This document shows, one piece after another, positions 5,956 to 35,580 of a stretch of 64,000 nt of DNA. The position numbers and the translations under genes were made by a program. Under the pieces are notes generated by a model. The model ran no database searches and was not told the DNA's origin. It was given only the letters and a program-made list of their open reading frames with translations. The stretch comes from Candidatus Raymondbacteria bacterium RIFOXYA2_FULL_49_16. Its GTDB lineage: Bacteria; Fibrobacterota; OXYB2-FULL-49-7; XYB2-FULL-49-35. Positions within the stretch are counted from its first letter, which is position 1, and the number at the start of each line of letters is the position of its first letter. The stretch is taken from contig MFYT01000002.1 of NCBI GenBank assembly GCA_001789205.1, positions 1-64,000 on the forward strand, read 5' to 3'.

Positions 5956-6018
5956 AAACGCCTCCATGTCTTAATCTTGATACAGGTATGAATATCCCAG
6001 AGGACCCTTACCGAACAC

Positions 6019-14605: not shown

Positions 14606-14648
14606 GGTGTTCTCCTTTTTTGATGCATCGGCCGCGGACAAAAGGGGT

Positions 14649-17781: not shown

Positions 17782-17810
17782 AATATATCACCAGATAAAA
17801 CGCAATACAA
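17782..17810 (-). promoter_or_regulatory. Sigma70-type promoter of the transglutaminase-like gene
   Basis: On the minus strand TTGTAT is followed after 17 bases by TATATT. The whole block, including the spacer, is nearly identical to the promoter at 35486-35514, and the distance to the upstream operator is the same in both. Confidence 0.7.
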
Positions 17811-17842
17811 CCACTTAGATGAAGTTTTAATAGAAAAAAATG

Positions 17843-17876
17843 AATAAAAATGCGGTTTTTCTGGCGGAAAAACGGT
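17843..17876 (-). promoter_or_regulatory. Direct-repeat operator, copy A
   Basis: Half-sites GCGGT and ACGGT, each preceded by an A-run, recur with a period of exactly 20 bases. The site lies 42 bases upstream of the -35 box. Copies occur at 35548-35580 and 32568-32601. Two helical turns between direct half-sites is what AraC-family activators use. Confidence 0.65.
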
Positions 17877-17917
17877 AAAAATGGCGCAAAGCACTAAAAT
17901 TACACCAAGTATTCGAA

Positions 17918-19042
17918 TTATTCCCTATTATAAGCACTACCTTCTTCAATCATGGCAATCAGATTATCAGAAAACGTTTTAGATATTTCGCTGGTATAGT
18001 ATGTGGCGGCCGGGGATAGAATAAATCCTCGTCCGCCAGACATGGCAAGGGCCTCTCGGGTCAGCTTCCTGATTTCAACGGATGTACAGCGTTCTAGGTC
18101 TTCCATCTGTATATATCCATAAAAACAGATTTTACCACCTGTCTTTTCCTTCAGTTCCGCCAAATCTATATCATTGGCAGGCGGAGGCTCAACGCAATTG
18201 ATGCAGTCAACGCCAATCTCAAGAAAATTATTCACTTGGTCGCGCAGACGGCCATGGCAGTGATTGTCCGCATAACACCCGGCCTGATGAATCATACTGA
18301 CAAGTTCTTTATCATAGGGTACAATCCATTGCGACGCCCAATCCGGGGGCAGCATGGGAGTGGTGTATCCTTCGATATTGTGCAGGCGAAAAACCGGTCC
18401 CGCACCCTGGTCGATCAGGTAGGACAGCATCTCTTTCAGGCGCCTGAGATTTGTCTCACATATCCGCCGCATGCCCTCACCAGCGGAAATAGCATACATC
18501 AGGTAAAACTCGTAATTGCAGAGGCCTGCGGTCAGGTTGTGAGGTGAGGATATGCTGTGCATGCAAACAAGACCATTGTCGCCTATACGTTCCTGCAATG
18601 CGCGGGTTTCGGACATATCCGGCAGATAGGTAGGTAACGTAGCCAGTGAAAGCGCCTTATCCAGATCTTCCTCGTTCTCAATAAACGCTTTTTCCTGGGC
18701 GGGTGAATTCGAAACGCGCGGGTCTTTTTTGCCAAGCGAATACAGTTCGCCTTTTGGCGTTTGCATTGAAATACGCGAATATTCAATTACCCCTTCTTTC
18801 CTGGTTTCAGTTTTCAGTCCGCACGATTTAGGATCAATCAACAAGGGAGGCGTCCAAAACCATGAACGCACAAACGGTGTGCCATGTTTGTCAAGCGCCT
18901 TAAGTATGGGTTTGAAATGAGTGTAGGCGGGATTATTGCGGTCTATCTCGAATTCATTGATACCGAGAGGCGAAATTGGAACACTGCCGGTTTGTTCGCA
19001 CCGCAGTGTCAGTAAAAGCCGTTCCTTGGGGGTCAGTTTCAT
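17918..19042 (-). CDS. Uroporphyrinogen decarboxylase (URO-D) family protein
   Basis: 374 residues, cytoplasmic, no signal peptide. The start KLTPKERLLLTLRCEQTGSVP and the distal ADNHCHG...INCVEPP pattern belong to the URO-D/MtaA/CmuA superfamily. In methyltransferase members an H-x-C and a distant Cys bind zinc; here NHCHG and the later Cys could do so. Members outside haem synthesis move methyl groups between methylated substrates, corrinoid proteins and cofactors. In this polysaccharide locus, handling of methyl groups from methylated sugars is a speculative role; haem synthesis is unlikely. The ATG at 19042 has AAAGGA upstream, whereas an in-frame ATG at 19057 would bury that site. It is the last gene before the operator-promoter at 17.8 kb. 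Confidence 0.75.
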   Translation of the reverse strand: MKLTPKERLLLTLRCEQTGSVPISPLGINEFEIDRNNPAYTHFKPILKALDKHGTPFVRSWFWTPPLLIDPKSCGLKTETRKEGVIEYSRISMQTPKGELYSLGKKDPRVSNSPAQEKAFIENEEDLDKALSLATLPTYLPDMSETRALQERIGDNGLVCMHSISSPHNLTAGLCNYEFYLMYAISAGEGMRRICETNLRRLKEMLSYLIDQGAGPVFRLHNIEGYTTPMLPPDWASQWIVPYDKELVSMIHQAGCYADNHCHGRLRDQVNNFLEIGVDCINCVEPPPANDIDLAELKEKTGGKICFYGYIQMEDLERCTSVEIRKLTREALAMSGGRGFILSPAATYYTSEISKTFSDNLIAMIEEGSAYNRE

Positions 19043-19078
19043 TGCGTTTCCTTTCAATTAAAGAGCTTATGACGCTCC

Positions 19079-19375
19079 TTATCTGACGAGGACCAGTTTT
19101 TTCGAGAAAGCCATTGCGCCGACAGTCAGGTTTAAAATATAAATACCTGCTGGCCTGTCCGAGGCGTTCCAAGGTATGCTGGAAGCTGTGAATCGTGAGC
19201 CGCGAGCATCAAGCTTTTGTACAAAGTTTCCATGAATATCATAAATAATTATTTTGACTTCTTTATCTCCAGTGAACAATTCGCCGTTCACGGCTATTCG
19301 CGTACTGGGATTAAAGGGATTGGGCACTATCGTTACTGCATCGCCAGTCTTTCCAGGACCAATGTGTTCTATCAT
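19079..19375 (-). pseudogene. Orphan T9SS sorting domain, remnant of a lost secreted protein gene
   Basis: The 98 codons encode only a T9SS type A tag: IVPNPFNPST, an IIIYDIHGNFVQ strand pair, a PAGIYILNL turn and terminal VLVR. There is no signal peptide or catalytic domain, and the left end of an insertion sequence lies only 7 bases upstream. Everything N-terminal to the tag is missing, so this is most likely the 3' stump of a secreted protein gene lost by deletion, rather than a functional small protein. It is not in frame with the sulfatase once the insertion is removed. Confidence 0.7.
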
Positions 19376-19382
19376 ATCGTTA

Positions 19383-19412
19383 GTGTCTGCGATGAAATAA
19401 GTGTATCAACTT
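19383..19412. repeat. Left terminal inverted repeat of the insertion sequence
   Basis: Matches the inverse of 20641-20670 with about five mismatches over 30 bases; the shared core reads GTCTGCGAyGAAATAAsTGTAkCAACT. Confidence 0.75.
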
Positions 19413-20613
19413 AGTGTCTTGGTCGGATCGTATAGTTCCAGTCACCATGGAAATCATTTCGAATAAGATTGATTGTCTCCCACTCTTTTACCGTCACTTT
19501 ACGACCAACTGGGTATTGACGATGATCTAATTTGCAGGAAACTTTCAATCCTGTAGTCGTTGTTGTCTTTGAAATCAGATTTACAACAGTCTCAAAATCG
19601 ACCAAAGATTCTCCTCGCCAGTTTGAACTGATAAATGAGAAGAGCCGATGCTCCACCTTGTTCCACTTGCTGGTACCGGGTGGAAAATGACAAACTGAAA
19701 TAGGTAACCCTAACTCGTCTGCAAAACGCTGAAGTTCCCATTTCCACAAGCGCAATCTTGATCCATTGCTCCCACCTGCATCCGCTGTGATTTGCAACCG
19801 TTTCGCCTTTGGATAAGCATACTTTCCTTCCGCCCGCCACCAGGCCCGAATCGAAGCAACCGCAAAAGTGGCGGTGTCATGGTCGGTTCCAACATTAACG
19901 AATCCTCTGTTGCGAGTCAACTCATAAATACCATACGGATGGGCACGCGGCACTAAAGGATCCGGAAAATCATGTCCATTTACTTTCAAGGCAGTACCTT
20001 TTTTGCGCCATTGATTCCCTCGATTGGCATAGTTACCAATGAGTTCTTTTTTCTTGGTATCCACGGAAATAACTGGTTGGGCAACTCGTATTTCCTTTGT
20101 CACGCGTGCATTGATGTATTCAAACTGCGCATTGCGATCCGGATGTTGCTTGCCCTCGATTGTTTTGCTGTTGCCTTGGAGGCTATATCCCATGCCGTTT
20201 AAAAGTACCCCAACTATACGGCTACTGGCTGAATAACCCATCTCTTGCAACTCCCGTGAAAGACTGCGTGTACTTTTGCAGGTCCAACGCAGAGGCGACT
20301 CCGGATCTCCGCGGGTCAATGGTTCGACCAGGCTTTCCAGCTTTTCAGGTAAGTCGGGCTTATGATGAACAGCCGATTTGCGACCGCCACCAGACCTGCG
20401 AACTCGTCCTTCCGGCAACACTTCTTGAGTTTCTATCTCACGAAGTCCAACAAATATCGCACGCCGTGAAATATTCGTTGCACGCGCTACCAATGAAATT
20501 CCACCGTAGCCAAGAGTACTGGCTTCCGTCGCAGCCCAAATTCGTCGTGTATGCTCATTAAGATGTGAGGAAATAAACTGATACTTCTGTTGAATTGCTG
20601 CTTCTGTTATCAC
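19411..20613 (-). CDS. ISAzo13-family transposase (Rhodopirellula-type DDE)
   Basis: 400 residues. An N-terminal helix-turn-helix region (about 30-70, STLGYGGISLVARATNIS) precedes an RNase H-like catalytic core. The DDE triad can be placed at ISVDTKKKEL, ITADAGGSNG and WNKVEHRLFSFIS. The GNYANRGNQW and PHPYGIYEL-type motifs are characteristic of the Rhodopirellula transposase family (PF07592). It fills nearly the whole insertion sequence. The start is a GTG; no strong ribosome site is seen. No frameshift or stop interrupts it. Confidence 0.88.
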   Translation of the reverse strand: MITEAAIQQKYQFISSHLNEHTRRIWAATEASTLGYGGISLVARATNISRRAIFVGLREIETQEVLPEGRVRRSGGGRKSAVHHKPDLPEKLESLVEPLTRGDPESPLRWTCKSTRSLSRELQEMGYSASSRIVGVLLNGMGYSLQGNSKTIEGKQHPDRNAQFEYINARVTKEIRVAQPVISVDTKKKELIGNYANRGNQWRKKGTALKVNGHDFPDPLVPRAHPYGIYELTRNRGFVNVGTDHDTATFAVASIRAWWRAEGKYAYPKAKRLQITADAGGSNGSRLRLWKWELQRFADELGLPISVCHFPPGTSKWNKVEHRLFSFISSNWRGESLVDFETVVNLISKTTTTTGLKVSCKLDHRQYPVGRKVTVKEWETINLIRNDFHGDWNYTIRPRH

Positions 20614-20640
20614 ACAGATAAAATAAATAATGCAAGGCTT

Positions 20641-20670
20641 GAGTTGCTACAGTTATTTCGTCGCAGACCC
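20641..20670. repeat. Right terminal inverted repeat of the insertion sequence
   Basis: Inverse partner of 19383-19412; abuts the TTA target triplet that forms the complement of the sulfatase stop codon. Confidence 0.75.
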
Positions 20671-22239: not shown

Positions 22240-22254
22240 TTTTTGACCTAAAAC

Positions 22255-24267
22255 TTATTTTAATAACATAACAGTAGTGTTATAATTTTTATTACCTATT
22301 TTCAAGCAGACCATATATATACCGCTGGGAAAACCCGCGGCATTCCAGAAAATACCCGTTAAAAACTGCTCGTTATTTGCAATTTGCCGGTGAACTATTT
22401 TACCATCTACAGAATAAACCGCTAGTGCACCGTTATTAACCGTTAACTTATTATTGCTTAAAGTTATTTTTACAACTGGATTAAACGGATTTGGCGAGAC
22501 AGATAAGGCATCATCCATATCCTTGCTCTGCCTGCCTGCCACCACAGCTGAACAACCGCCGTTACAAGTAATAATTAGTCTATTGCCCGTTTCCGACACC
22601 ATCAAACTATCAACGGTAATCAGCCCATTTTCATCAGCAATGGCGATACCGGATGCTAAATTATTTCCTGAAACCACGTCAATATTTCTCCAGTTGTATG
22701 CATCCCCGCCCCTAATAATGAAATCCTGGACCCTGCGCGGCGTAACATCTACAACCGTATTCGGTCTGCTGGACCTCATTGTTATTGAAATGGAATCAGC
22801 GCAGTCAATCAGGTCGTCGTTGGAAAGACCCATATCATGGAGAGAGGAGGTCCAATCGATATACCCATTCATTAATCCAGCGGAATCGCATTGAAGAGCC
22901 GGCGTACCGGTAAAAACCAAATCCGAGGTGTCAGGGTCAAATTGCCCGTAATCGTCGTCCTGGGAGGCGTTTGAAAAAACAGGATACAATTCATTTTTCC
23001 TGAATCGCATATATCCGCCGCTTAAAACCGTATCAGACAAAATACTGTTGTCGTGACTTAGGTTGAACCATTTGCCCCATATGCCATGCCGTGTACCGGC
23101 GAATTTCCGGTATAAGCATCGGTGCATCCTCATGTTGCTTATGCCGTCAGTGCTTCCATGGCTATTTACTATTGGAGGGAAGTCGCGGCCAATATTCTGC
23201 TCCGCAATCCAGGTTTCGTCCATCCAGTTGTAAATATTAACGCCATTTCGTGCGGTTAGGTTAAGGCTTTCCGGGCCATAGAAGTCGTACCAAACGCTAT
23301 GATACCATGAATGGAATCCACGCGCAGCAATGTTTGGCCTTATTGCCGCCCAAATGTCCGGATTATGAAAAGATGTATGGTACGTGCCAAAACCGCCCAT
23401 GCTTCCACCGGATAAGTATATCCTGTTCGTGTCGATGGAAAATCTCGGATCATTTTTCAAAGATTGCGTATAATATACAATGCGCATTTCATCATACCCG
23501 ACAATGGTATCTCCATGCTGCAATTCATGCTCGCTATAATGATTAGAAACGCCATACCACCAGGATTGGCAGAGGTGGTACGGAAGATTGCAATGATTTT
23601 GCAATCTCATTGTTAACCTGTCATTTTTTAAACCGGGATTTGAAGTATCATATAGAGTACTACCTGCTCCATGAAGATAGAGTTCTAAGGGAACATCCTG
23701 TTTTCCTCTTAATATAACTGCTTCTCCAACCACAAAATGGTCGCCATAATATTCGTATGCATGCGGCCAGTCGAAATAATCCATCCAGTAATAATAAAAA
23801 TAATACGTATTCGAATTGTATTTTGATCTTAAAACGCCGCATGGCCATTGCCAATACTCCTCATCTTCCGGTGAAACCAATGAATTCGTGCCGGAAATAA
23901 TGTTCGTGTCTTCACTGCCGTTTGTCACGGAGGTGATCGCATAATATGCCGAGTTGTCTTGTTTGGGTGTATATACAAAAAGGCCGGTATTTGCGGAAAG
24001 CGGTTGTCCCAAGTCTTCAACAACATGGTAAAACCCGTATCGGGAATCATAACTCGAACCTTTGGGTATGTTAGCTAGCGGAGCAAGCCCATGAACATGG
24101 GCAATTTCATTTTCCGAGCGGTAAATATTATAGCTTTGTGCGCCGGAATCCTCCGTAAAGGTGATAAATGTCTTACCTTTTCTGAATTCTGCTTTAAGGT
24201 CCGAGGGGGTAGAAAAAGAGTTGGTGAAACAAAGCAACGTAACAATCGCAGCACACATTACCCGCAT
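22255..24267 (-). CDS. Secreted alpha/beta-hydrolase esterase with T9SS tag (paralogue of 3985-5955)
   Basis: 670 residues with the same layout as the protein at 3985-5955: signal peptide, LKAEFRKGKTFITFTEDSG domain, hydrolase with SGGSMGGFG (Ser near 288), HGSTDG and an NLSHDN histidine, a VDVTPRRVQDF module and a T9SS tag (SPNPFNPVVK). The two are similar end to end and plainly duplicates. Ester cleavage on a polysaccharide is inferred. As in its paralogue, GGAGG sits at the correct distance from the second ATG (24267) and inside the first (24279). The 143-base gap to the next upstream gene holds nothing I recognise. Confidence 0.85.
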   Translation of the reverse strand: MRVMCAAIVTLLCFTNSFSTPSDLKAEFRKGKTFITFTEDSGAQSYNIYRSENEIAHVHGLAPLANIPKGSSYDSRYGFYHVVEDLGQPLSANTGLFVYTPKQDNSAYYAITSVTNGSEDTNIISGTNSLVSPEDEEYWQWPCGVLRSKYNSNTYYFYYYWMDYFDWPHAYEYYGDHFVVGEAVILRGKQDVPLELYLHGAGSTLYDTSNPGLKNDRLTMRLQNHCNLPYHLCQSWWYGVSNHYSEHELQHGDTIVGYDEMRIVYYTQSLKNDPRFSIDTNRIYLSGGSMGGFGTYHTSFHNPDIWAAIRPNIAARGFHSWYHSVWYDFYGPESLNLTARNGVNIYNWMDETWIAEQNIGRDFPPIVNSHGSTDGISNMRMHRCLYRKFAGTRHGIWGKWFNLSHDNSILSDTVLSGGYMRFRKNELYPVFSNASQDDDYGQFDPDTSDLVFTGTPALQCDSAGLMNGYIDWTSSLHDMGLSNDDLIDCADSISITMRSSRPNTVVDVTPRRVQDFIIRGGDAYNWRNIDVVSGNNLASGIAIADENGLITVDSLMVSETGNRLIITCNGGCSAVVAGRQSKDMDDALSVSPNPFNPVVKITLSNNKLTVNNGALAVYSVDGKIVHRQIANNEQFLTGIFWNAAGFPSGIYMVCLKIGNKNYNTTVMLLK

Positions 24268-24410
24268 AATTTCCTCCATATTTTAGATTCGATTCAAATA
24301 CAGGCCCGTAGGCGAACGTTTAATCTTAAGAGCATCTTTATTTCATGCAAGCGACTCGTCCGTATACTCCATCAACAATATCTACCCCGCCCTATCTTTT
24401 TGAAGGATAT

Positions 24411-26468
24411 TCATCTCAGCAAAGTAATCGTTTTTGACAGCACTTTTTTGCCAGCTTTTACCTTAATCACATATATTCCGGAAGGGCATTTGTCCGCTTT
24501 CCAAACAATTGGTGAATACGTGCGTATATTTTGAACAATGGATGTTAAATCATCAACCAACACTCCCTTGGCATTATATATCCGTATTTCTATATTTGCA
24601 TTTTTCTGCTTTTCAGTAAAGTCCAATGTAACACTCGGATTAAAAGGATTGGGGAATACGGTAATATCTATCCCTTTCCGTGAAGTCTTTCTTGCATTTT
24701 CATCTATCTTACTAAGAGTGTTATTCACGACCAATCGATTTCCAAGCATGCTGGTAAGTTGATACTCAGTGATCGTCGCCAAATTATCATCATCAACATA
24801 AATTTCTTTATCTTGGATCGCCGTACTATCTGACAGTGCTATATTAACAGCATTAAGCATCGTTCCCGCTACCGGCAAGAACCGCTGCGGACGCCGTATG
24901 GTTATATCAACGGTAATCGGCAGCTGCAACATAGTATCCGGAATGATGTCCACTTTCCACATATTTGAAGAATCCATTACATTCCGCCATTTAAGACCGC
25001 GATTCATGTAGCCTGCAATATCACCATTTGCAGAATCACCATTGCCCGGATCTTCATCAGCAGAACTGCGACTGAACGCAGGATAGCTTTTGTTTAGTGC
25101 TATGTCCTCGCCGAAACCATTACAGTATGTATAAACATAAATATCATCGGGAACTAAAGGAACCGTACCGCTATGGTTGCCATTGTTCCATGCAGCAATA
25201 TAACCATGCCTGCTATTATTAAGAGAATGATAAAAGGCCGGAACATTTTCCCAAGGTATACTTCCGTCATTCCTGCCGTTTACAATGACTAAATAGGGCA
25301 AATTCCTATTCCTATTATTTTCAACAAACAATGGCCCATCCATTCTGTTTTCCAGAGAGACTTGTTCGTTCGTCAATATAGACAATGGGCCGCAATAGGC
25401 GGTCAATCGCCACGCATTATTTTCATGATAAGACGGATTCGGCACATGAACGCTTATTCCCGCAAATATTTCAGGATGTCTTAACCCGAATGAAATGCCT
25501 CCGCATCCACCCATGGAACTGCCAAAAAGGTATGTTCTGTTTGTATCCGGACTGTAATACCGTTTTGCCCAATCAAGCATCCATAATAATATTCTTTCAG
25601 TATAGTTTACCGATATTCCGCTACTCATGCTGTCTGGATTTATTATTTTATTGTTATATCCATACCAAAAGGTGTGTATGGCGGGATTTATCTTATTATA
25701 TCCATCATTTGCCTCTGTGAGTATGCGCCGAATCCATGCTTGGTCATTTGGCCTGATTTTAATATAATCTGCATATTGAGAATTTTCTACGCCGAATTTA
25801 AATGGCAATCCTTCTCTCCACCCCATAGAACTATCTCCAAATGCAAGAAAATGTTTTAAGCCGCTACCGCCTTTCGCATGCAGAAAAAGTCGTATTGTTT
25901 TTCCAACCCCGGAACCAGGTAACGGTTTATCATTAAGGCCTTCCTGCCAAATTGGCTCAATGGGCGCCACTCTCTGTTCGACAGGCTGTGTTAGTGTGTT
26001 TTGGCCAGCTGAAATAGATGAATCTATTACGCCATTAGTATCCTTAACAACAACTGAATAATATCTGTTTCCTTCTTCATTAAAAGTTACGGTATGAACA
26101 AACAAACCATCGGCTATAATTGGCGTTCCACCATCCTCAATGATAAAACCAATAGGATAGGGTGAATCGCTTAAATATTTATCAGGATCCTTCCACCAGT
26201 CAGTAGCGGATTTTCTGCATACGTCAGAAACACGCTTAACATCCATCGCATTCAAACTGGAAATCTGGTTTGACGAACTGTAAATTATAAAAAGGGTTCC
26301 TGAATCAACGGCGGGCTCTTTCCAGGTTATAAAAACCTGTCCGGAGCGATAAAACGCATTTAATTCTGATATTTGCGCAGAGTCCCCTGTTTGCACAATA
26401 TACACCAGAAACAATAATAACAGGCGGCACCATCTATTACCGTAAATAGACCATTTTCCTGCTTGCAT
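24411..26468 (-). CDS. Secreted alpha/beta-hydrolase esterase, third family member, with T9SS tag
   Basis: 685 residues: signal peptide, an N-terminal ELNAFYRSGQVFITWKEP domain, then a hydrolase with TYLFGSSMGGCGG (Ser near 316), VNGRNDGSIPW and NNGNHSGTVP as the probable triad, an ITIRRPQRFLPV module and a T9SS tag (FPNPFNPSVT). It is more diverged than the 3985/22255 pair but clearly of the same family. The ATG lies inside the 3' end of the preceding gene (32-base overlap) with a strong AGGAGG five bases upstream, so it is coupled to the RIFT/toroid gene. Substrate unknown. Confidence 0.83.
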   Translation of the reverse strand: MQAGKWSIYGNRWCRLLLLFLVYIVQTGDSAQISELNAFYRSGQVFITWKEPAVDSGTLFIIYSSSNQISSLNAMDVKRVSDVCRKSATDWWKDPDKYLSDSPYPIGFIIEDGGTPIIADGLFVHTVTFNEEGNRYYSVVVKDTNGVIDSSISAGQNTLTQPVEQRVAPIEPIWQEGLNDKPLPGSGVGKTIRLFLHAKGGSGLKHFLAFGDSSMGWREGLPFKFGVENSQYADYIKIRPNDQAWIRRILTEANDGYNKINPAIHTFWYGYNNKIINPDSMSSGISVNYTERILLWMLDWAKRYYSPDTNRTYLFGSSMGGCGGISFGLRHPEIFAGISVHVPNPSYHENNAWRLTAYCGPLSILTNEQVSLENRMDGPLFVENNRNRNLPYLVIVNGRNDGSIPWENVPAFYHSLNNSRHGYIAAWNNGNHSGTVPLVPDDIYVYTYCNGFGEDIALNKSYPAFSRSSADEDPGNGDSANGDIAGYMNRGLKWRNVMDSSNMWKVDIIPDTMLQLPITVDITIRRPQRFLPVAGTMLNAVNIALSDSTAIQDKEIYVDDDNLATITEYQLTSMLGNRLVVNNTLSKIDENARKTSRKGIDITVFPNPFNPSVTLDFTEKQKNANIEIRIYNAKGVLVDDLTSIVQNIRTYSPIVWKADKCPSGIYVIKVKAGKKVLSKTITLLR

Positions 26469-29100
26469 TTGCGCCTCCTATACATAGTTTATAAAAATAG
26501 ATCCCGGAACTGACTACCATATCTTTGGAATCGCAGCCATTCCACCTAACAGTATTCACCCTTTTTAGCTTTTGAATATTGAACTTCATTATCAATTTTC
26601 CTTGAAGGTTATAAATAGACAAATACGCTGTTTGATCGCTTCCTAATCGCGTATTCATGTCAAATGAAATTACCGTATTAGGATTAAACGGATTTGGAAT
26701 GTTTTGATTTAACGTGAAAGATGCCGCGGAATGAGTATTGTTCTCCCTATCAGCCAATACCGTATCATAATCAATTGCTTCTGGAAGAGGATTTGTGCGA
26801 TAATCATCTTTATGCTTAAGATAAAAATAATAGGGCTGCAACCACGCGTTACCCATACCCCAATGAGATACTTCCTCATTCTGACGTACAATACGAACCA
26901 TTTCCGTATCACCGGTCGCGTAATAATATCCCATAAGCGCGCCCATAACACGGTAATTGGAAGCCGAGGATTCCGCATCTCCACTATCGACGCACATTGT
27001 TGGCGTACCAGGGTCGTCATAGGGAATTAATCCTCCATCACCGATAATGCACCGGAACCAGTCCTTGTGGGCATTAATAATGTCCATTTCCCTATCATTT
27101 TGAAAATCCTTCCAATTGCGCACAACACTTGCGCCCCAAATACCTTGGAAAAATGGAGACCCAGCAGGCCATCTTCCTTCTGTTGTTTGAAATTCACGGA
27201 ATATGCTGTCCAGGTACATCAAACGCTCCAAATGATATGCATCTCTGCTTAATGAATAAGCGTCATGTATATTTCGCATGGCGGCGCCAATATTCCTTCC
27301 ATCACCTCCATAATCTCCTCTTCCGATAGTCTGACCGACCATATCCATGCCACGCCATTCAACCATAGCCAAGGCGTTATCATAAGCCCGACGATCGCCT
27401 GTCAAACAATACATATCCATGGAATTCTGAATATCATTGTGCCCGGTAGTCGGACAACCCCATATATGGTTATCCGGAAGATCCCCGCTATGCACAGGGT
27501 CTCTGCGAGGTCTCCATGTCTTGTAATAATCATAAAAACCTACAGGCATTTCATTTCCCGCATAACGGCTGAAAAAGTAATCAAAATATCTATAACCGTC
27601 TATATGAAAAGATGAAAGATCATTCTGCAGGTTTGTAGCGGCCTCCGCAAACCTAAATTGTCTTGGATCCAAAGTCTGCAGAAAGTGGAGCCACTCGTCC
27701 TGTGGTATTTCTCCCTGTTGATCATTAAATAAATAGTCACTTAAGCCAAAACGGTCCCATCCATCCTCATATCTCGAATGCACCCATTTCAAGGATGGGT
27801 TAATAATTGGCAAGGTGGTATCATGCGCTGTTGTTAAGGTATCGTAGACCATATCATCCAGATAAGCCCGTGTTATGCTGTACCAGGAACGGGGACAAGT
27901 CGGAAACAATTTGTGGTTGAAAGACGCAACTTTATTAAATGCTTTTGATTCTTCCGCCGATCCAGTGTGGAAATAGTAGATGACTGAGTGAGTCTTATGC
28001 TCCCTATCACCTAAAAAGTATTTGTCTCCAGCTTCATGCGGCCATAATCCCACTTCCATCACCCCACCATCCATTATTCTTATTGCTTTCGGGAAATTAC
28101 TTGCCAGATCGTATACTCCTACGGAAAGGCCCCATTGGCTGTCTGAAATATCCGACCAGCCAAGACTTCTGGACCCGCTTTGTATTGTACTGATACCGGA
28201 ATAGATGTTAAAGCTATTTGAGTCGTTCTGAAAAAGATAAGCGCTATCTCCGTCGTTCAATATCCCTTTTACGGAATCGTTACCAAAAAAAGAGTAACTT
28301 TTTGTACCGCTTAAATTTAATGAAGTGACCAAACTGAAATCAGAGGTCCCAAGGGGCCCTCGCGCAATAATTTCAGGAGAATTCTTTAAGGTATAATCCA
28401 CACGAACCTCGCTCTTTCCAGCCCATGCGTACATACGGCAAAGATATCCGTAATAACGGTTATCATTTAACCCGTTCGAATGATGTCCTTCCAGGCAAAT
28501 TACCGCACGAAATGGACCAGATTCTTCTATTTTTACCGACATTCCCGTATCTTTAGCGGAATAAAATACCTCAGAAGTATATAGCGCATGTAATACGGCC
28601 CCATCAAAAGGATTGGAACGCACAAGCGTGTCATTAACCTCCCCATTTTTGTCACCATCTAAAAGCACAAGATCAAACAGATTAAATCCACCGTTCTTTT
28701 TTATCCTGAATATTAAAACGCCTGTGGATACTGAGATATATTCCGATGTCTCACTTACCTCAAGACTTGTCATCGGAATTGTCCCAGGACTATTGTCTTC
28801 CAATATATACACAGTCTCACCATGGGCCGGCACAGATGCATTAAACTGCGCTAACATCCACCGTATAGAGCTATCAGGCCAAAACATCAGCGGATTAAAA
28901 CAATAATTGTCCGCACCATCTATCTGGAAGTAACGCGTGTTCTTATATGCTCCTTTTGGAAGCGGTACACCAGTTGCCACAGGCTCTTGGATTCTCGGAA
29001 CACCATGATATTCGTATACCCTTAAGGGGATATATAGACATTGTACAGTTATTGCGGTAATAAGGGAAATGCATGCTGCATATATCGTTGACCGTCTCAT
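26437..29100 (-). CDS. Large secreted PcRGLX/YetA-like RIFT and toroid protein with T9SS tag
   Basis: 887 residues: signal segment, then an N-terminal domain with VATGVPLPKGAY and MFWPDSSIRWMLAQF. These are hallmarks of the PcRGLX/YetA-like RIFT-barrel family containing exo-rhamnogalacturonan lyases. The middle (about 400-760) is helical and aromatic, consistent with an alpha/alpha toroid (GCPTTGHNDIQNSMDMY, WRGMDMVGQTIGRGDYGGDG). It ends in a T9SS tag with QNIPNPFNPNT and VYLR. A lyase-type attack on uronic-acid-containing polysaccharide is inferred. Start supported by AAGGA. It is a distant relative of 6019-8484. Confidence 0.65.
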   Translation of the reverse strand: MRRSTIYAACISLITAITVQCLYIPLRVYEYHGVPRIQEPVATGVPLPKGAYKNTRYFQIDGADNYCFNPLMFWPDSSIRWMLAQFNASVPAHGETVYILEDNSPGTIPMTSLEVSETSEYISVSTGVLIFRIKKNGGFNLFDLVLLDGDKNGEVNDTLVRSNPFDGAVLHALYTSEVFYSAKDTGMSVKIEESGPFRAVICLEGHHSNGLNDNRYYGYLCRMYAWAGKSEVRVDYTLKNSPEIIARGPLGTSDFSLVTSLNLSGTKSYSFFGNDSVKGILNDGDSAYLFQNDSNSFNIYSGISTIQSGSRSLGWSDISDSQWGLSVGVYDLASNFPKAIRIMDGGVMEVGLWPHEAGDKYFLGDREHKTHSVIYYFHTGSAEESKAFNKVASFNHKLFPTCPRSWYSITRAYLDDMVYDTLTTAHDTTLPIINPSLKWVHSRYEDGWDRFGLSDYLFNDQQGEIPQDEWLHFLQTLDPRQFRFAEAATNLQNDLSSFHIDGYRYFDYFFSRYAGNEMPVGFYDYYKTWRPRRDPVHSGDLPDNHIWGCPTTGHNDIQNSMDMYCLTGDRRAYDNALAMVEWRGMDMVGQTIGRGDYGGDGRNIGAAMRNIHDAYSLSRDAYHLERLMYLDSIFREFQTTEGRWPAGSPFFQGIWGASVVRNWKDFQNDREMDIINAHKDWFRCIIGDGGLIPYDDPGTPTMCVDSGDAESSASNYRVMGALMGYYYATGDTEMVRIVRQNEEVSHWGMGNAWLQPYYFYLKHKDDYRTNPLPEAIDYDTVLADRENNTHSAASFTLNQNIPNPFNPNTVISFDMNTRLGSDQTAYLSIYNLQGKLIMKFNIQKLKRVNTVRWNGCDSKDMVVSSGIYFYKLCIGGANASRKMVYLR

Positions 29101-29145
29101 ATTTTATTCCTTGATAGAGGTATCATACGCAAAAAATGTTCTTAA

Positions 29146-30138
29146 CTATTTAACTACAGAGAGCTTTTTCATATAGTTTGCTTCGTTAATCGAAGCCTTA
29201 AGCATGTATATACCCGAATGAACGCTGATATTTCGGCTGTCTTTGCCATCCCAGGTAATGGCATATGTTCCGGGCTGCTGCTGCGCGTTGACCAGCGAAC
29301 GTACCAGTTTTCCTTCTGTACTGTACACGTTCATGACAACGCGTGCATGAGCAGGGAGGTTGTACCGCAGTATAGTGTTACAGTTGAACGGATTTGGAAA
29401 AGCGGATATGGCGGACAATGTTTTAGTGTCGGTTTTGTCTTCAACTGCCGTGGGATCGTAAAATACCCACAGTTCGGTCCAGCCACGGGGGTTGGCGCCT
29501 TTATAAAAAAACCACTGGCTCCATCCGTTCGCAGTGGCGTCCCAGCCCCAAACGCATATTCCATGCGCATTGCCTTCAAGCAAATCCTTTGCCGTATTTT
29601 TATCGATATCAATGATCATATATGGATACTGGTAATTCGTAGAATCGGAAACAATCGGTTTTTTGCCAAAGTTAACCACTGTTCCAAGGCTGGCAAACCC
29701 ATTTTTCCATTTCACAGAAGGACTGCGCGCATACAGAAAGCTCGGTTCACCCTCTGGAGGCGCAACAGTATAGTTTTGCTGGGTTCCCTGTATCCAGGAT
29801 AAATCCGAACGGATGATGTTATAATACATGCCCGCAGTACCGCGATAGCTGTTCTCCGGCTTCATTACAAGCTGCACACCCACAATTTGTGCAAACGGCG
29901 GTACTGTTGAAACATCAAAATCCACAGTGAAATAGTTTTGATTATTGGTCTTGAAAAAACCGAATTCCGGGTTACTGTAGTTGCCCACCTGTTCTGCTCC
30001 AGATGAGCTGAAAGACCCGTCGATCGTACGGATAAGCGTGACCTTCTGATATCCTCTATAGTTGATAGGACCAGCAAAAAGGCCTTGAGAAAAAAAGTAA
30101 AGAGCACAAAATCCGAGGATTTTTATTAAATTTGACAT
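29146..30138 (-). CDS. Secreted DNRLRE-like domain protein with T9SS tag
   Basis: 330 residues: signal peptide (1-22), one beta-sandwich-like domain (about 25-235) and a T9SS tag with AFPNPFNCNT. The stretch YFTVDFDVSTVPPFAQIVGVQL echoes the F-D-L-S-x-I-P-x-x-A-x-I core of DNRLRE domains, also present in the 999-residue protein at 14695. Such modules are structural or carbohydrate-binding rather than catalytic, so this may be a surface-attached binding protein; I am not certain of the family. The start has GGAGG three bases before the ATG, and a GC-rich hairpin lies just upstream of that. Confidence 0.6.
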   Translation of the reverse strand: MSNLIKILGFCALYFFSQGLFAGPINYRGYQKVTLIRTIDGSFSSSGAEQVGNYSNPEFGFFKTNNQNYFTVDFDVSTVPPFAQIVGVQLVMKPENSYRGTAGMYYNIIRSDLSWIQGTQQNYTVAPPEGEPSFLYARSPSVKWKNGFASLGTVVNFGKKPIVSDSTNYQYPYMIIDIDKNTAKDLLEGNAHGICVWGWDATANGWSQWFFYKGANPRGWTELWVFYDPTAVEDKTDTKTLSAISAFPNPFNCNTILRYNLPAHARVVMNVYSTEGKLVRSLVNAQQQPGTYAITWDGKDSRNISVHSGIYMLKASINEANYMKKLSVVK

Positions 30139-30154
30139 AAGCCTCCAAAAAGGT

Positions 30155-30187
30155 GGCGCGCAAGGAAAAAAGTCTTCCTTGCGCGCC
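30155..30187 (-). terminator. GC-rich hairpin between the 727-residue esterase gene and the DNRLRE-like gene
   Basis: Two 13-base arms (GGCGCGCAAGGAA and TTCCTTGCGCGCC) flank a 7-base loop. On the transcript a C-run precedes it, and CCACCTTTTT follows directly before the next ribosome site. The stem is nearly identical to the hairpin at 14649-14681. Confidence 0.65.
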
Positions 30188-30197
30188 GGGGGGGGTG

Positions 30198-32381
30198 CTA
30201 TTTCATGAATATAATTCTTTTTAATAGTTTCTGATCACCTGCACTTATTTTAACTACATATAGGCCTGAGGGATATAGGGTAGCATCCCAGGCATATCGC
30301 AAAGGAACCGCGGACTGAATACGCAGAGGCAATGAATGATGCACGAGGACGCCTTTAGCGTTAAATATTCTCACAATAACATTCAGGCTTTGCGTTGTTG
30401 GCCCATGATTTACTATAGAGATTATCGTTGCCGGATTAAATGGGTTTGGATAGCATTTCATCGATAGATTACCGGCAATACTCTCCCTGTTACAGGACAC
30501 TCCAGATACAAAATTAAGGGGAACGACAATCAATCTGCTCCCTCCGCTGTTTTTATCACCAGCTTTTACCTCAAAACCCTTGAACGTCAATAACCCAAGG
30601 CTGTCCGCAGTCAGAGTGTCCACTTGGAATACAGTGTTTAAATCATTAACCGCGGTATTCCTGGCAATATATTCTTCCCCTGGTGTTACCACAAATTTCT
30701 GGAGTCTTCGGGGAGTAATATCCGCAATATTATCGCCATTCCTGGAGACCAAAACAATTTCGTATCTGTTGACGCTGTCGATCTGGTCTTGATAGCCTCC
30801 AACACGGTAATAAGGGGTGCTCCAGTTGAACTGAGTATTAAAGGAATAATAGATCGAGTCTGGTGAATCGGGAACCGGAAGGCCGGGATTTCCCGAGACA
30901 TTTGAAAACGCGACAAATGAATTATTCTTTCTTATTGTTGTGGTCTGGTCATCATTTCCATTTGGAATCGCAAATAATACACCTGAGCAATAGTGTCCGG
31001 AAGCTCCGTCGCATCCTCCGCTCCAGCCACGCCTGGTTGAATCCAGGTTTGTATAATAGTTCCGGCCCTGCTGCGGCCAGTTAACACTTCCGTCTGTACC
31101 GCCATGACATATGAATATCCACGGCATTTCAACGCGTTCCATTTTAAAGAGCATGTTTTCCTGGTTTAAAAAGGTATGCAGAGTCATTCCTCCGAAAGAT
31201 TCATTCAGCCATTCACTCCTCCAGCCGGTAAATTTTACCTGCATGGTATCATTGGTATGGGAACCCCATCGCGTTTCGCACTGACGAAGCCAAGACCAAT
31301 CAGTTTCCAGATAATTTGTAACAGCGGTTTTGGCTATTCCATAGGCAAAAAAATCAGGATAATGGTGCATAAACTGCAATGTGCCACTTCCACCCATTGA
31401 AGCCCCTGTTGTGAAAATCCGGTTAGTATCAATACGTGTAGAATAATACGGTTCCCGCAGTATCATCCATTTTAAGAAATTCATATACCGGGCTTCGGTA
31501 AAATTTACTACTGGACCATCTTCCCTGATCGCACCTGAATTGCAGCAGGTTGGCACTATAACACTGGTATCATACACCGCTGTCTGACTATAACCAAACC
31601 ACCAATTTCCGGTTTCGTGCGTCTTGCACTCGATTCCTTGGCTGTTCCAACTATATGAATTACCTAGTGATGAAAGCGTTCCAGGCATGCCTGCAAGGCC
31701 CAGGCAGAGGGAAAGCTTTTCGGACGTTGTATTATATTTTGTGCCCACGCCAACCCAATACGGCCATGCGTATTCTCCTGTGTATGTAGGGTTAAAGGAA
31801 TCAACGTCTGTATACTGAAGATATATTCTCGCCTCTTTTATCCCAGACTGCCATAGCAACACAGGTGTTGGCTCTTCCACTGTTTCTTCAATCGCTCCAG
31901 TAATATTACCGTTATTTAGTGATTTATCTTCAACCCCTCCAACAACGGCTGTAATGGCATAATAATAAGTGCCGACTGTGTGCGTTGTCAAAACTACCAT
32001 CCCCGTACCATCGGCAACTTCAACAGCATTGCCAGAAGCAGTGTCGCTTAAAGGAATAATGACATGTTTTCGTATTGAGCAGGGAGGCGTAAGGGCCATG
32101 AAACCGTTTGATTCCGGTCTATAGTCAACCAGAGAGTTAAGATGTTTGTTGTTGGCCGAACCTTGCGGGACTTCATATCGCTTGTTTAACGCGGTTAAAT
32201 CCCCGGCAGAAAAGGCTGAAAGAGATCGATAAACAATATATTTTTCCGCAGATACAACCTCGTTCCAGGTAATAAAAACCTGACCCGAACGGAAAAATGC
32301 GTTTGTGTTTGTAGGCGTTTCGGCATAGCCACTTAGCATGGTAATGACAAGAATCAGAAGCAGAAGGATTGTTTGTTTCAT
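30198..32381 (-). CDS. Secreted alpha/beta-hydrolase esterase, fourth family member, with T9SS tag
   Basis: 727 residues: signal peptide (MKQTILLLLILVITMLSGYA), TNAFFRSGQVFITWNE domain and an inserted region around 80-150. The hydrolase core has TTGASMGGSG (Ser near 327), HGGTDGSVNW and a histidine in GASGHYCSG. A DITPRRLQKFVV module and a T9SS tag with YPNPFNPATI follow. It belongs with 3985, 22255 and 24411 and is the first gene behind operator copy C. The start at 32381 carries the signal peptide and AAAGGA upstream; a longer frame to 32435 would add residues before the signal peptide. De-esterifying role inferred. Confidence 0.82.
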   Translation of the reverse strand: MKQTILLLLILVITMLSGYAETPTNTNAFFRSGQVFITWNEVVSAEKYIVYRSLSAFSAGDLTALNKRYEVPQGSANNKHLNSLVDYRPESNGFMALTPPCSIRKHVIIPLSDTASGNAVEVADGTGMVVLTTHTVGTYYYAITAVVGGVEDKSLNNGNITGAIEETVEEPTPVLLWQSGIKEARIYLQYTDVDSFNPTYTGEYAWPYWVGVGTKYNTTSEKLSLCLGLAGMPGTLSSLGNSYSWNSQGIECKTHETGNWWFGYSQTAVYDTSVIVPTCCNSGAIREDGPVVNFTEARYMNFLKWMILREPYYSTRIDTNRIFTTGASMGGSGTLQFMHHYPDFFAYGIAKTAVTNYLETDWSWLRQCETRWGSHTNDTMQVKFTGWRSEWLNESFGGMTLHTFLNQENMLFKMERVEMPWIFICHGGTDGSVNWPQQGRNYYTNLDSTRRGWSGGCDGASGHYCSGVLFAIPNGNDDQTTTIRKNNSFVAFSNVSGNPGLPVPDSPDSIYYSFNTQFNWSTPYYRVGGYQDQIDSVNRYEIVLVSRNGDNIADITPRRLQKFVVTPGEEYIARNTAVNDLNTVFQVDTLTADSLGLLTFKGFEVKAGDKNSGGSRLIVVPLNFVSGVSCNRESIAGNLSMKCYPNPFNPATIISIVNHGPTTQSLNVIVRIFNAKGVLVHHSLPLRIQSAVPLRYAWDATLYPSGLYVVKISAGDQKLLKRIIFMK

Positions 32382-32567
32382 ATGCGTTATATTCCTTTCA
32401 TTGAATACTGATAATGTATCACTTTCTTTTGGCAAATACTTCCATTAATTTCAGGAAAGAATAACAAAATCTTTGGGGTTGGCAACACCATGGGGGTCTG
32501 GAATTATTAAAAATGGAGGGAAAACCACAAAAACAGGCACGAATGGATGTTTATCCTGTATTAAATG

Positions 32568-32601
32568 AATGAAAAAGCGGTTTTTTTAATGGAAAAACGG
32601 T
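32568..32601 (-). promoter_or_regulatory. Direct-repeat operator, copy C
   Basis: TGAATGAAAAAGCGGT and, 20 bases on, GAAAAACGGT reproduce the operators at 17843 and 35548. It is 196-220 bases upstream of the esterase start at 32381. Outside the core the flanks differ from copies A and B, and only a weak candidate promoter (TTTTTG, 17 bases, TAATAA) is seen. Confidence 0.6.
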
Positions 32602-32635
32602 AAATATGGGAATTCAGACTATCAGGACTCTTATA

Positions 32636-34120
32636 TTACCGAATCATAAGAAACTTTTTGCAAACAGATCTGCCTGCTACATTCAGCTTACAGATATATA
32701 CTCCTGAGGAGCCCCTCGTATGACTTAGTTTAAAAGCGGATTCATTAGTTCCGAGTTTTCCGGGAAGGTTGCCCGATACCTGTTTAACTAAAGAGCCTTT
32801 GATATCGTAGAGTGAGAGGTCTACTTGAGAACTTGCAGGTAAAATATATCTGATGTTGACCGTTGACCCATCTACATGGAGGAAGGATATCTCAAATTTT
32901 CCGTTCCCATTACTTGACGTCTCTTTTTCAATTGCATTTGGATCAATCCAATCAGCCAGGTGTTGCCTGAAATTCTTCTGTGTCTTCCCATAAAAGTAAT
33001 AACCAGTCTCCTCGTCATCCTGTACAACATTCGGGGAAGCGAGAAGCCTGACATATGAATCCGGATAGGTCGGCCCTGCTGAATAACTCCAGCTTGAAAC
33101 ATTATTTGGGTTCTGCTTTATCATAACATGGCCACCGTAAATCACATACTCTTCCAAAGCGTTATAGAACGCCTCAGTATTATCAAATTTGAATCCCTCG
33201 TTGATAAAAACAACCGGGTAGTTATAAAAATTAGGGATATAGTCGCCAGTAATAGATTCCCATGTATATCCCTCTTCGGCCATAGCACCGTAGAGTCTGT
33301 AATCAAAGACACTCACAGTATTTCTGGAAATATAAAGTACGTCCTTCTGGTTCTTATCATAGTAGGGGGTTGTTTGCCGCTGCATCTCGCTATAAACCAC
33401 AGCAAGAAGGAGAATCTGTTGCGCAAAATATTGGTAGTTGTGCTCATTATTGTCAGTGCAGCTTACATACCATGGGGCTATATTTAAGATAATCTCAGAA
33501 AAAATATTGGGTATCGCATCGTCCAGCCCCCATCGTACATGAGCCGTATCCAAATAGCTTTTATAGCCGGTCATTATTTCTTGCTCCGTAAGAAGCCCGT
33601 CCCCATATTTGGTATCTATTCCTCCATACTCCCCCGCCTTTTCAGGAAATTGAAATTCAAGGAAGTGGGTCATCGCAGCGCATTTGAGCGCAATCTTATA
33701 TGTATCAATAGGCTCTTCGCTAAGATCTTTTTGAATGTCTCGGATATACCAATCCCATTGATACGATTGATGATCGCCAATATATCCAATCTCACCATGT
33801 GAAGCGGAGATCAGGTATCCGAAATCAGGCGCATTCTCAAAATTTAATACTGAAACAACATCAAGGTTCCCGTCTGATAGCAGCGGTGTGCCAGCATCTT
33901 CAATTAAATGACCATAATAATCACAGCTGTGGCCAACATGATTCACATCAGAAGGGAGATCATTGCCGAAGTAACTTAGCCTGGTTTTCAGGAGTTCCTT
34001 CAGCGGCCCTTCATTCATAAGTTCAACGCCCCATCCTGGCATAAGGTCATGAAATTCAAACCAGCAGAAACCAGGTACGCTTAATAGAATAGAAATGATT
34101 AGTGTAATTCTTAACGACAT
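32636..34120 (-). CDS. Secreted protein of unknown function with divergent sorting tag
   Basis: 494 residues. A signal peptide (about 1-19) is followed by a mainly helical region with several conserved-looking histidines (DLPSDVNHVGHSCDYYGH, LISASHGEIGYIGDH, AAMTHFLEFQ) that could bind metal, as in zinc phospholipase C/S1-P1 nuclease folds; this resemblance is weak. The last 80 residues (VNIRYILPASSQVDLSLYDIKGSLV ... SSGVYICKLNVAG) look like a T9SS tag, but the PNPFNP opening is missing. I do not recognise the main domain. It follows the SGNH hydrolase gene by 13 bases and is co-transcribed from the promoter at 35.5 kb. Confidence 0.6.
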   Translation of the reverse strand: MSLRITLIISILLSVPGFCWFEFHDLMPGWGVELMNEGPLKELLKTRLSYFGNDLPSDVNHVGHSCDYYGHLIEDAGTPLLSDGNLDVVSVLNFENAPDFGYLISASHGEIGYIGDHQSYQWDWYIRDIQKDLSEEPIDTYKIALKCAAMTHFLEFQFPEKAGEYGGIDTKYGDGLLTEQEIMTGYKSYLDTAHVRWGLDDAIPNIFSEIILNIAPWYVSCTDNNEHNYQYFAQQILLLAVVYSEMQRQTTPYYDKNQKDVLYISRNTVSVFDYRLYGAMAEEGYTWESITGDYIPNFYNYPVVFINEGFKFDNTEAFYNALEEYVIYGGHVMIKQNPNNVSSWSYSAGPTYPDSYVRLLASPNVVQDDEETGYYFYGKTQKNFRQHLADWIDPNAIEKETSSNGNGKFEISFLHVDGSTVNIRYILPASSQVDLSLYDIKGSLVKQVSGNLPGKLGTNESAFKLSHTRGSSGVYICKLNVAGRSVCKKFLMIR

Positions 34121-34133
34121 TTCTGCCCCCTAA

Positions 34134-35426
34134 TTATTTCACTAAAATAGTCCTGCAGGCCTTGATTATCTTCCCATTATTGATAATTATTGAGTAAACA
34201 CCTGTTGCTACCCGCCGGTTTTCATCGTCTTTGCCATCCCAGGTTACGGAATACGTTCCAGGAGTATACATCCGGTTCGCAAGCGTCTTGACCTTCTTGC
34301 CGGAAGTGTTAAAAATCGAAATAGTAACGGCACCAGCGCTATTGTTTCCTGGTAACACAAATGAAACAATCGTTGAAGGATTGAACGGTGAAGGAGCTGT
34401 AGAGATTTCAATGTTGTCTGGTGTTGCAGAGGCTGATGCATAAACGCCCGTTGCCACAACGGTATCGGCTTTATATATAACCTTTTGCCGCAACTCAAGC
34501 GTTGTTTCCAAAAGCATGATATTCCAGAGTCCGCACACAGGATTTAAAACCCCTTTGGCCTGGGCAAGTGGATAGAATATTACGCTATCGCTGAAATTAC
34601 CCGAAGACTGCGACCTTTCTGGATGAGCGCCATCGCGGGTGCAATAATCGCTTCTGAGCGTGCAACCGCCGATCAACGGATCAACTGCGGCACCGTACCA
34701 GTCCAAACAGGGAACCCGATACCGGGCAGCAAAGGCCCTTAACGAATCATTATATACCGGCGTTCTGCCTTCATGGTCGTACGCTGAACCGGGCTGTTCT
34801 GGATTCAGGGTTACAATAATAGGAATAACATTGCTGTCCAGAGACCGTTTCAGCAGCCTCATCCATTCAGCCCTTCTGGTCGAATTCCAATAACAATCAT
34901 CATTGTGGCCAAATTCCAGGGTAACCCACATGGGGTTGAGGTTATTCAATGCATTGCCAAGCAGAGCAAAACCCTCTGCTGTTTTTGCGCCAACCTGGTT
35001 TCCGTTGGCTGCATAATGGCAGGTGAGGTCATAGAGCCAGGGATGGTCCCGATTGCTGGCACCCCCTGGACCGCCCCATGTTTCAGTCAGAAAATTGTCC
35101 CAATACGTATTGTTGGGCCTGACGCAGTTGATAATGCCCGATCCTGTCCAACTGCCAGGCGACTGGCGGCCCTCGGATAAATCTGAAGGAAAAGGGCCAT
35201 CATTAGTGATTGAATTGCCGACCAGTCCAAAACGGTATTTATTCCATCCCCGCGTTCCCTGGCTCTTCTGCCACCGGACATTCACATTGAGCATTGAATC
35301 GAGGCAATCCTGGTCGCAATGAAGATAGGGATAAAATTCAGGCCAGTAACCTGATCCTTGAAACGCACCATTTGCTAGAACAAACCATACACAAACAGCG
35401 CTAAAAATGACTGCAGGCTTAACCAT
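34134..35426 (-). CDS. Secreted SGNH/GDSL hydrolase with T9SS tag
   Basis: 430 residues: signal peptide (1-20), an SGNH hydrolase domain and a T9SS tag (SPFNPSTI). Block I is GLVGNSITNDG (Ser near 71), block III is EFGHNDD and block V is DGAHPE, giving the catalytic Ser, Asp, His and oxyanion residues. Enzymes of this fold remove acetyl or acyl groups, and in polysaccharide loci many are acetyl esterases. It is the first gene downstream of operator B and its promoter, directly next to the AraC-type regulator gene. The ATG has AAAGG upstream. Confidence 0.87.
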   Translation of the reverse strand: MVKPAVIFSAVCVWFVLANGAFQGSGYWPEFYPYLHCDQDCLDSMLNVNVRWQKSQGTRGWNKYRFGLVGNSITNDGPFPSDLSEGRQSPGSWTGSGIINCVRPNNTYWDNFLTETWGGPGGASNRDHPWLYDLTCHYAANGNQVGAKTAEGFALLGNALNNLNPMWVTLEFGHNDDCYWNSTRRAEWMRLLKRSLDSNVIPIIVTLNPEQPGSAYDHEGRTPVYNDSLRAFAARYRVPCLDWYGAAVDPLIGGCTLRSDYCTRDGAHPERSQSSGNFSDSVIFYPLAQAKGVLNPVCGLWNIMLLETTLELRQKVIYKADTVVATGVYASASATPDNIEISTAPSPFNPSTIVSFVLPGNNSAGAVTISIFNTSGKKVKTLANRMYTPGTYSVTWDGKDDENRRVATGVYSIIINNGKIIKACRTILVK

Positions 35427-35485
35427 AGAGAGCCTTTCTTTTCTATTTATAGTTTCGGTCTAATGTTAAAATTTTCATTACTCTA

Positions 35486-35514
35486 AATATATCATCAGAT
35501 AAAACGTAGTACAA
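35486..35514 (-). promoter_or_regulatory. Sigma70-type promoter of the SGNH hydrolase gene
   Basis: On the minus strand TTGTAC, a 17-base spacer and TATATT. The block matches the promoter at 17782-17810 almost base for base, and both lie 42 bases from the proximal operator half-site. Confidence 0.7.
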
Positions 35515-35547
35515 CCACATGGATGAAGTTTTTATTGAAAAAAATGA

Positions 35548-35580
35548 ATGAAAAAGCGGTTTTTTTGGCTAAAAAACGGT
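35548..35580 (-). promoter_or_regulatory. Direct-repeat operator, copy B
   Basis: AAAAAGCGGT (35551-35560) and AAAAAACGGT (35571-35580) repeat with period 20. The last base is shared with the stop codon of the AraC-type regulator gene. The site is centred about 85-90 bases upstream of the predicted transcription start, a usual place for an activator. Confidence 0.65.

Follow-up and report, generated by a model that had tools for sequence, protein, structure and literature searches.

Transcription activators of the AraC/XylS family share a C-terminal double helix-turn-helix domain of about 100 residues (PF12833/PF00165), recognise direct half-sites about two helical turns apart and control local regulons that comprise few operons. 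In Firmicutes, AraC regulators anchored in the membrane, such as Bacillus YesS/RhgR, adjoin pectin-degradation genes. In Bacteroides, Bacillales and Enterococcus, the predicted L-rhamnose regulators are associated with a direct repeat of 21-bp period (PMC3870299). The hybrid two-component systems (HTCS) of Bacteroides carry an extracytoplasmic sensor, a transmembrane (TM) segment and an AraC-type domain on one polypeptide (PMC3878776, PMC11253607); a genome holds many such paralogs, each of them next to genes for polysaccharide degradation, and the operators predicted for them are direct repeats of 21 bp on average (PMC3878776). SusR-type regulators, which are confined to Bacteroidetes, are one-component membrane proteins with a periplasmic sensor, a cytoplasmic DNA-binding domain described as unlike other families, and direct-repeat motifs with an unusually long repeat distance (PMC3878776). 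Here, we describe a related arrangement in Candidatus Raymondbacteria bacterium RIFOXYA2_FULL_49_16, in the first 64,000 nucleotides of contig MFYT01000002.1 (the whole stretch analysed, hereafter the window). Three copies of a 20-bp-period direct repeat precede genes for secreted enzymes tagged for the type IX secretion system (T9SS), and one copy abuts the gene of a membrane-anchored AraC-type regulator (35580-37535). We consider it likely that the three sites are the operators of one small local regulon under this regulator.

The arrangement is an HTCS-like layout without the phosphorelay, and thus a variant of a known one. It shares with HTCS the domain order on a single polypeptide, the many paralogs beside degradation genes and the repeat operators (20 bp at the window sites, 19-21 bp in paralogs). 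Unlike HTCS, the window regulator lacks a histidine kinase and a receiver, has a different sensor and adjoins T9SS-tagged enzymes; no SusC/SusD genes were recognised among the cluster proteins scanned, and the host, as far as inferred, does not belong to the Bacteroidota. The regulator has the C-terminal domain, half-site spacing and local scope of the AraC/XylS activators, from which it differs in a sensor that lies across the membrane and in a period that varies from 19 to 21 bp by paralog. SusR-type proteins are similar in their one-component layout and direct repeats, whereas the window regulator has a clear AraC domain; here SusR is set apart by its published description. YesS/RhgR, likened by general description, are similar in membrane anchoring and differ in phylum.

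The three 29-bp sites follow the motif AAAAnCGGT-N11-AAAAnCGGT with a period of exactly 20 bp and, as read and scanned in the window, share one orientation:

17848-17876, minus strand: operator copy at 17.8 kb, AAATGCGGT-N11-AAAAACGGT on the plus strand, with one deviating half-site
32573-32601, minus strand: operator copy at 32.6 kb, AAAAGCGGT-N11-AAAAACGGT on the plus strand, from sequence reading and scan
35552-35580, minus strand: operator copy at 35.5 kb, AAAAGCGGT-N11-AAAAACGGT on the plus strand, ACCGTTTTT-N11-ACCGCTTTT in gene orientation

Behind each site comes a minus-strand gene whose product has a T9SS-type tail, which confirms the three co-oriented repeats before minus-strand secreted-enzyme genes that had been proposed in a sequence-only reading of this DNA. 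The same reading placed AAAAnCGGT in all half-sites; this holds for five of them, but in the 17.8-kb copy the first half-site is of the AAAT type (AAATGCGGT on the plus strand). In gene orientation, the core kept in all three sites consists of ACCGTTTTT, a variable stretch and AAAAACCGC-n-TTTT-n-ATTCATTT. At up to two mismatches the window holds three matches, compared with 0.025 in Markov shuffles with the window's dinucleotide statistics. Genome-wide statistics, here and below, derive from genome searches and from sequence taken around AraC genes. At up to one mismatch, the whole 5.43-Mb genome yields these three sites only, all inside the cluster and all before T9SS-tailed genes; the motif is therefore private to the secreted-enzyme cluster, and random scatter, which the earlier reading had named as the contrary outcome of such a scan, was not seen. 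The two-mismatch level adds 13 further matches, at or below the 21 of a reversed-pattern control. We regard the sites and their uniqueness in the genome as established.

Conservation extends beyond the operator. A DNA search of the genome with the 35.5-kb region returned, above noise, only the 17.8-kb copy (98 bp, 87% identity, E=1e-27) and the 32.6-kb copy (43 bp, 86%, E=2e-7). The longer match is an operator-promoter module, whose promoter elements were predicted by a weight-matrix scan:

35486-35583, minus strand: 98-bp operator-promoter module, copy 1, 87% identical to 17782-17879 (E=1e-27)
35509-35514, minus strand: predicted -35 element TTGTAC, kept in the 98-bp module
35486-35491, minus strand: predicted -10 element TATATT, 17-bp spacer
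17782-17879, minus strand: 98-bp operator-promoter module, copy 2, from the whole-genome DNA search
17805-17810, minus strand: predicted -35 element TTGTAT
17782-17787, minus strand: predicted -10 element TATATT, 17-bp spacer

The 98-bp block terminates in the TATATT -10 element, with the consensus TTGTAY-17-TATATT, and the distance from operator to -35 element is equal in the two copies; the 42 bp claimed earlier for both is correct when counted from the ACCG core. Two copies do share an extended promoter, as the sequence-only reading had it, although its copy labels were inconsistent: the pair consists of the 17.8-kb and 35.5-kb sites, whereas the likeness of the 32.6-kb copy is confined to about 43 bp (86%) around the operator. 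The sigma70 promoter with a 17-base spacer likewise applies to that pair and not to the 32.6-kb site, so that a sigma70-type promoter is predicted for two of the three sites.

The genes directly behind the sites are as follows:

34134-35426, minus strand: first gene at the 35.5-kb site, GDSL-type hydrolase with a FlgD_ig/T9SS-type C-terminal domain (Pfam/NCBIfam)
30198-32435, minus strand: first gene at the 32.6-kb site, S9/PHB-esterase-like secreted enzyme with a T9SS tail
14695-17694, minus strand: first gene at the 17.8-kb site, 999-residue secreted protein with fn3, CBM96/DNRLRE and a T9SS tail

All three encode a Por_Secre_tail/CHU_C-type C-terminal domain; among the matches to such tails here and behind paralog sites, several fall below the Pfam cutoff. 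These genes bear on the idea that segmental duplication in the cluster left the copies behind and that they have no regulatory function. Duplicated enzyme genes do occur there (for example 3985-5967 and 22255-24279, 53% identical), but the first genes belong to different families, so the module was not copied together with a gene; moreover, conservation at the 32.6-kb site is limited to the operator, and other paralog clusters show the arrangement with other sequences. We thus regard functionless duplication as highly improbable.

The regulator gene lies immediately upstream of the 35.5-kb site:

35580-37535, minus strand: AraC-type regulator of 651 amino acids, stop codon 35580-35582

It is the only AraC gene within the window (another lies on the same contig at 79014-80045) and, as had been observed in the earlier reading, ends on the last base of this site: the operator overlaps the last base of the stop codon by one base (35580). 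The protein comprises an N-terminal hydrophobic signal segment (residues ~8-26), a large sensor region, a TM helix (~511-529) and, after about 20 residues, a C-terminal HTH_18/AraC domain (~551-648) that matches Pfam HTH_18 above the cutoff (E=1.2e-15). In Pfam, no HisKA, HATPase or Response_reg match was found, pointing to a protein with neither kinase nor receiver. The solved structures in PDB nearest to its DNA-binding domain are AraC and an HTCS protein, and a profile of its paralogs matches the AraC DNA-binding domain 2k9s (E=3e-19). The sensor region has no Pfam match; a sub-threshold hit to CIP1 (E=0.07) and a comparison with a DUF6250 enzyme were not counted as evidence of its identity, and structure prediction from the single sequence gave an unusable model, with a mean predicted local distance difference test (pLDDT) score of 36. 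We consider this architecture established, with the topology inferred from hydropathy: the regulator is a membrane-anchored one-component sensor, not a soluble AraC protein, and belongs to a large paralog family, a feature beyond the earlier reading.

The sites could in principle serve another regulator, such as the sigma54-type activator encoded close by (39600-41960) or a soluble AraC protein from another locus; the genome holds dozens of further AraC-domain proteins. However, sigma54 -24/-12 motifs occur in the window at chance level (38 found, 37 expected), the predicted promoters are sigma70-like, and the 20-bp repeat abuts the AraC gene, a rule repeated across paralogs that indicates the neighbour. 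Control by a different protein is accordingly very unlikely.

If the repeats are operators of membrane AraC proteins, other members of the family should carry nearby direct repeats of similar period and different sequence. The genome encodes about 23 long membrane AraC proteins, all of which match HTH_18 and HTH_AraC and five of which also match the carbohydrate-binding family CBM9_1; a hydrophobic segment precedes the AraC domain in 23 of 23 (by hydropathy only). A strict first search of the paralog clusters for repeat pairs in common gave no convincing analogue, because most paralogs carry a single site, and the test was recast as one of period enrichment in the 3' gap. For genes encoding more than 480 amino acids with a co-directional next gene (n=18, including one AraC protein without a clear TM segment), we took the best-scoring direct repeat in the 150 bp 3' of the gene, trying periods of 10-40; the 117 control gaps were other co-directional gaps, taken from sequence in the neighbourhood of AraC genes. 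The best repeat had a period of 19-21 in 12 of the 18 membrane AraC gaps, compared with 19 of the 117 control gaps (Fisher p=2.2e-5). Across four scoring schemes, and with the discovery case, two of three close paralogs and one ambiguous case removed, p ranged between 1e-6 and 2e-3. Period triplets away from 19-21 reached at most three cases each, and the 5' flanks of membrane AraC genes showed no enrichment of 19-21-bp repeats. The association of these repeats with the 3' side of the family is thus established: of the related sensor genes tested, about half to two-thirds are followed by the same layout, with a switch sequence that differs each time. Examples include:

contig 90: TTTCAGCAAAAAAGCCGAA/TTTCAGCAGAAAAGCCGAA, period 19
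contig 102: AAAAAAGACGAA twice, period 19
contig 9: TCATAGAAAATGCCGAA/TCTTAGAAAAAGCCGAA, period 19
contig 64: TTTCTAAAAATGC/TTTCCAGAAATGC, period 19
contig 69: AATCAATAATAGT twice plus a degenerate third copy, period 21

T9SS-type tails are present in 8 of 9 genes examined behind paralog sites. In most examples, candidate -35 elements are found roughly 30-59 bp away from where the second half-site starts; the putative operator would lie upstream of the promoter, which fits the expectation for an activator.

Several paralogs appear to have private operators of their own. The contig 64 type (TTTCnAnAAATGC-N6, twice) has two matches in the genome and none in the control, one behind its own regulator and the other before another secreted-protein gene of that cluster. 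The pattern AAAAnGnCGAA-N8, twice, has three matches genome-wide at up to one mismatch, each directly 3' of a membrane AraC gene; the DNA-binding domains of these three regulators are 56-79% identical to one another and at most 44% identical to those of the other regulators compared. Judging from these alignments, regulators that are alike in their DNA-binding domains have half-sites that are alike as well. The nearest paralog of the window regulator (contig 38, 41% identical over its length) is followed from its stop codon by a 118-bp block that is repeated 10 kb away at 70% identity; both blocks contain TTGTAA or TTGTTT-17-TATATT promoter-like elements, and a degenerate 20-bp repeat, AYATYY, is a weak candidate operator inside the block. 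On contig 23 (L089), a further cluster with a membrane AraC gene contains another duplicated block that resembles a promoter: about 150 bp at about 99677-99824 and 102068-102213 are shared at 75% identity, upstream of plus-strand genes and with an 18-bp AATTATT repeat. Taken together, the private sites, the 3' enrichment among paralogs, the other private operators and the co-variation of half-site and domain lend sequence support to the single regulon of the adjacent AraC regulator that the earlier reading had inferred.

The main rival to an operator function takes the repeats for transcription terminators or RNA hairpins that close the upstream genes at their 3' ends, where ACCGTTTTT...AAAAACCGC would fold into a GUUUUUn/nAAAAAC stem followed by a U-rich stretch. 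A stop codon indeed precedes each of the three sites by 0-41 bp, and each site can form a 6-7-bp stem, but these stems are weak and A+U-rich (-2.6, -4.6 and -1.1 kcal/mol) and one breaks a pair. For a terminator, neither joint conservation with a promoter 47 bp downstream nor restriction to one cluster would be expected, and the paralog repeats of other sequence on contigs 102, 90 and 9 are direct without a comparable hairpin. A paralog repeat on contig 23, AGCGCT...AGCGTTTTTT, folds well (-13.8 kcal/mol). Because the stems at the three window sites are weak and conservation extends into the promoter, terminators are disfavoured and, in our estimate, very improbable. The contig 23 repeat (113190-113218, AGCGCTTTTT/AGCGTTTTTT, period 20) lies behind a membrane AraC gene and is close to the ACCGnTTTT half-site; since this AGCGnTTTT site is also a good hairpin, it is ambiguous between an operator and a terminator-like structure. 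Another match on this contig, ACAGGGGGCTAT, was discarded as it spans the start of the next gene.

Some observations weigh against operators of the adjacent regulator. The 32.6-kb site has no recognisable promoter at equal spacing, the best candidate scoring 3.4 in the weight-matrix scan compared with 7.8 and 9.5 at the other two sites. The contig 39 paralog, whose DNA-binding domain is 61% identical, has no gap before the next gene, and no ACCG-type site was found nearby. Of the membrane AraC genes tested, about a third lack a clear 3' repeat, and a second genome of the class replicates the pattern weakly, with clear repeats in 2 of 5 genes with a co-directional next gene (19 and 20 bp). Contig scans and class and phylum searches gave no close ortholog for phylogenetic footprinting; the latter found one same-order genome with distant relatives and one weak match to the DNA-binding domain. 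The operator assignment is sequence-based throughout, and binding and transcription are predicted.

Under the favoured model of a local regulon, the outer domain of the regulator would sense a carbohydrate or breakdown product outside the cytoplasm; a glycan-fragment signal is probable because the cluster neighbours include hydrolases, esterases, a sulfatase and a PcRGLX-like protein. The single TM helix would pass the signal to the cytoplasmic AraC domain and favour a DNA-binding dimer, which would occupy both ACCGnTTTT half-sites, presented on the same DNA face by their 20-bp spacing, upstream of the -35 element. The bound dimer could then help RNA polymerase to start the secreted-enzyme operons behind each site. 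We infer binding, the dimer stoichiometry, activation rather than repression, and the glycan ligand. A doubtful extension of the model is that, in this lineage, every membrane AraC sensor gene has its operator directly behind its own stop codon, in a self-contained cassette of sensor, operator and secreted enzyme. Such a placement might then not be incidental: a regulator fixed in the membrane cannot diffuse through the cytoplasm, and if the nascent sensor were inserted while its gene is still under transcription, the operator next to it would be drawn to the membrane, which would solve the search problem.

Further cluster genes continue the rows behind the three sites. The gene 14695-17694 heads a tandem row of secreted proteins, and two further rows comprise:

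32636-34120: gene 13 bp beyond 34134-35426, with a T9SS tail
29146-30138: next in the tandem row headed by 30198-32435
26437-29100: PcRGLX-like, same row
24411-26468: esterase-like, same row

At 19090-20613, a transposase (DDE_Tnp_ISAZ013; 19411-20613, minus strand) adjoins an apparent C-terminal T9SS tail (VPNPFNP...) without a gene body, and a secreted-enzyme gene was probably disrupted here by the insertion. The proteins of 3985-5967 and 22255-24279 are T9SS-tagged and S9/esterase-like, with their 53% identity extending over the full length; together with a similar-looking gene pair (2377-3945 and 13016-14641), they point to a duplication of part of the cluster. A PAS-SpoIIE phosphatase (106-2334) and the sigma54 activator (39600-41960) flank the cluster; their middle regions are weakly alike (24% over 137 residues, E=2e-5), as if one sensor domain were shared by two proteins of different output. 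Two AraC genes of shorter length in the second genome of the class (L133 and L134) have perfect 20-bp-period repeats 5' and not 3' (AATTTAAGGAA twice and TTAAGATTTT twice), which suggests autoregulation in another subfamily.

For a poorly studied lineage that uses the T9SS, these findings would supply a concrete scheme of regulation, in which numerous membrane AraC sensors without a kinase each have an operator of their own, and inspecting the DNA behind the sensor gene is enough to find it. The paralog set would allow sensors to be paired with the enzyme operons they control, and the diverged DNA-binding domains and half-sites among the paralogs of one genome may serve as a natural data source for the AraC recognition code. 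The arrangement also raises the question of why a membrane-bound regulator keeps its operator beside its own gene.

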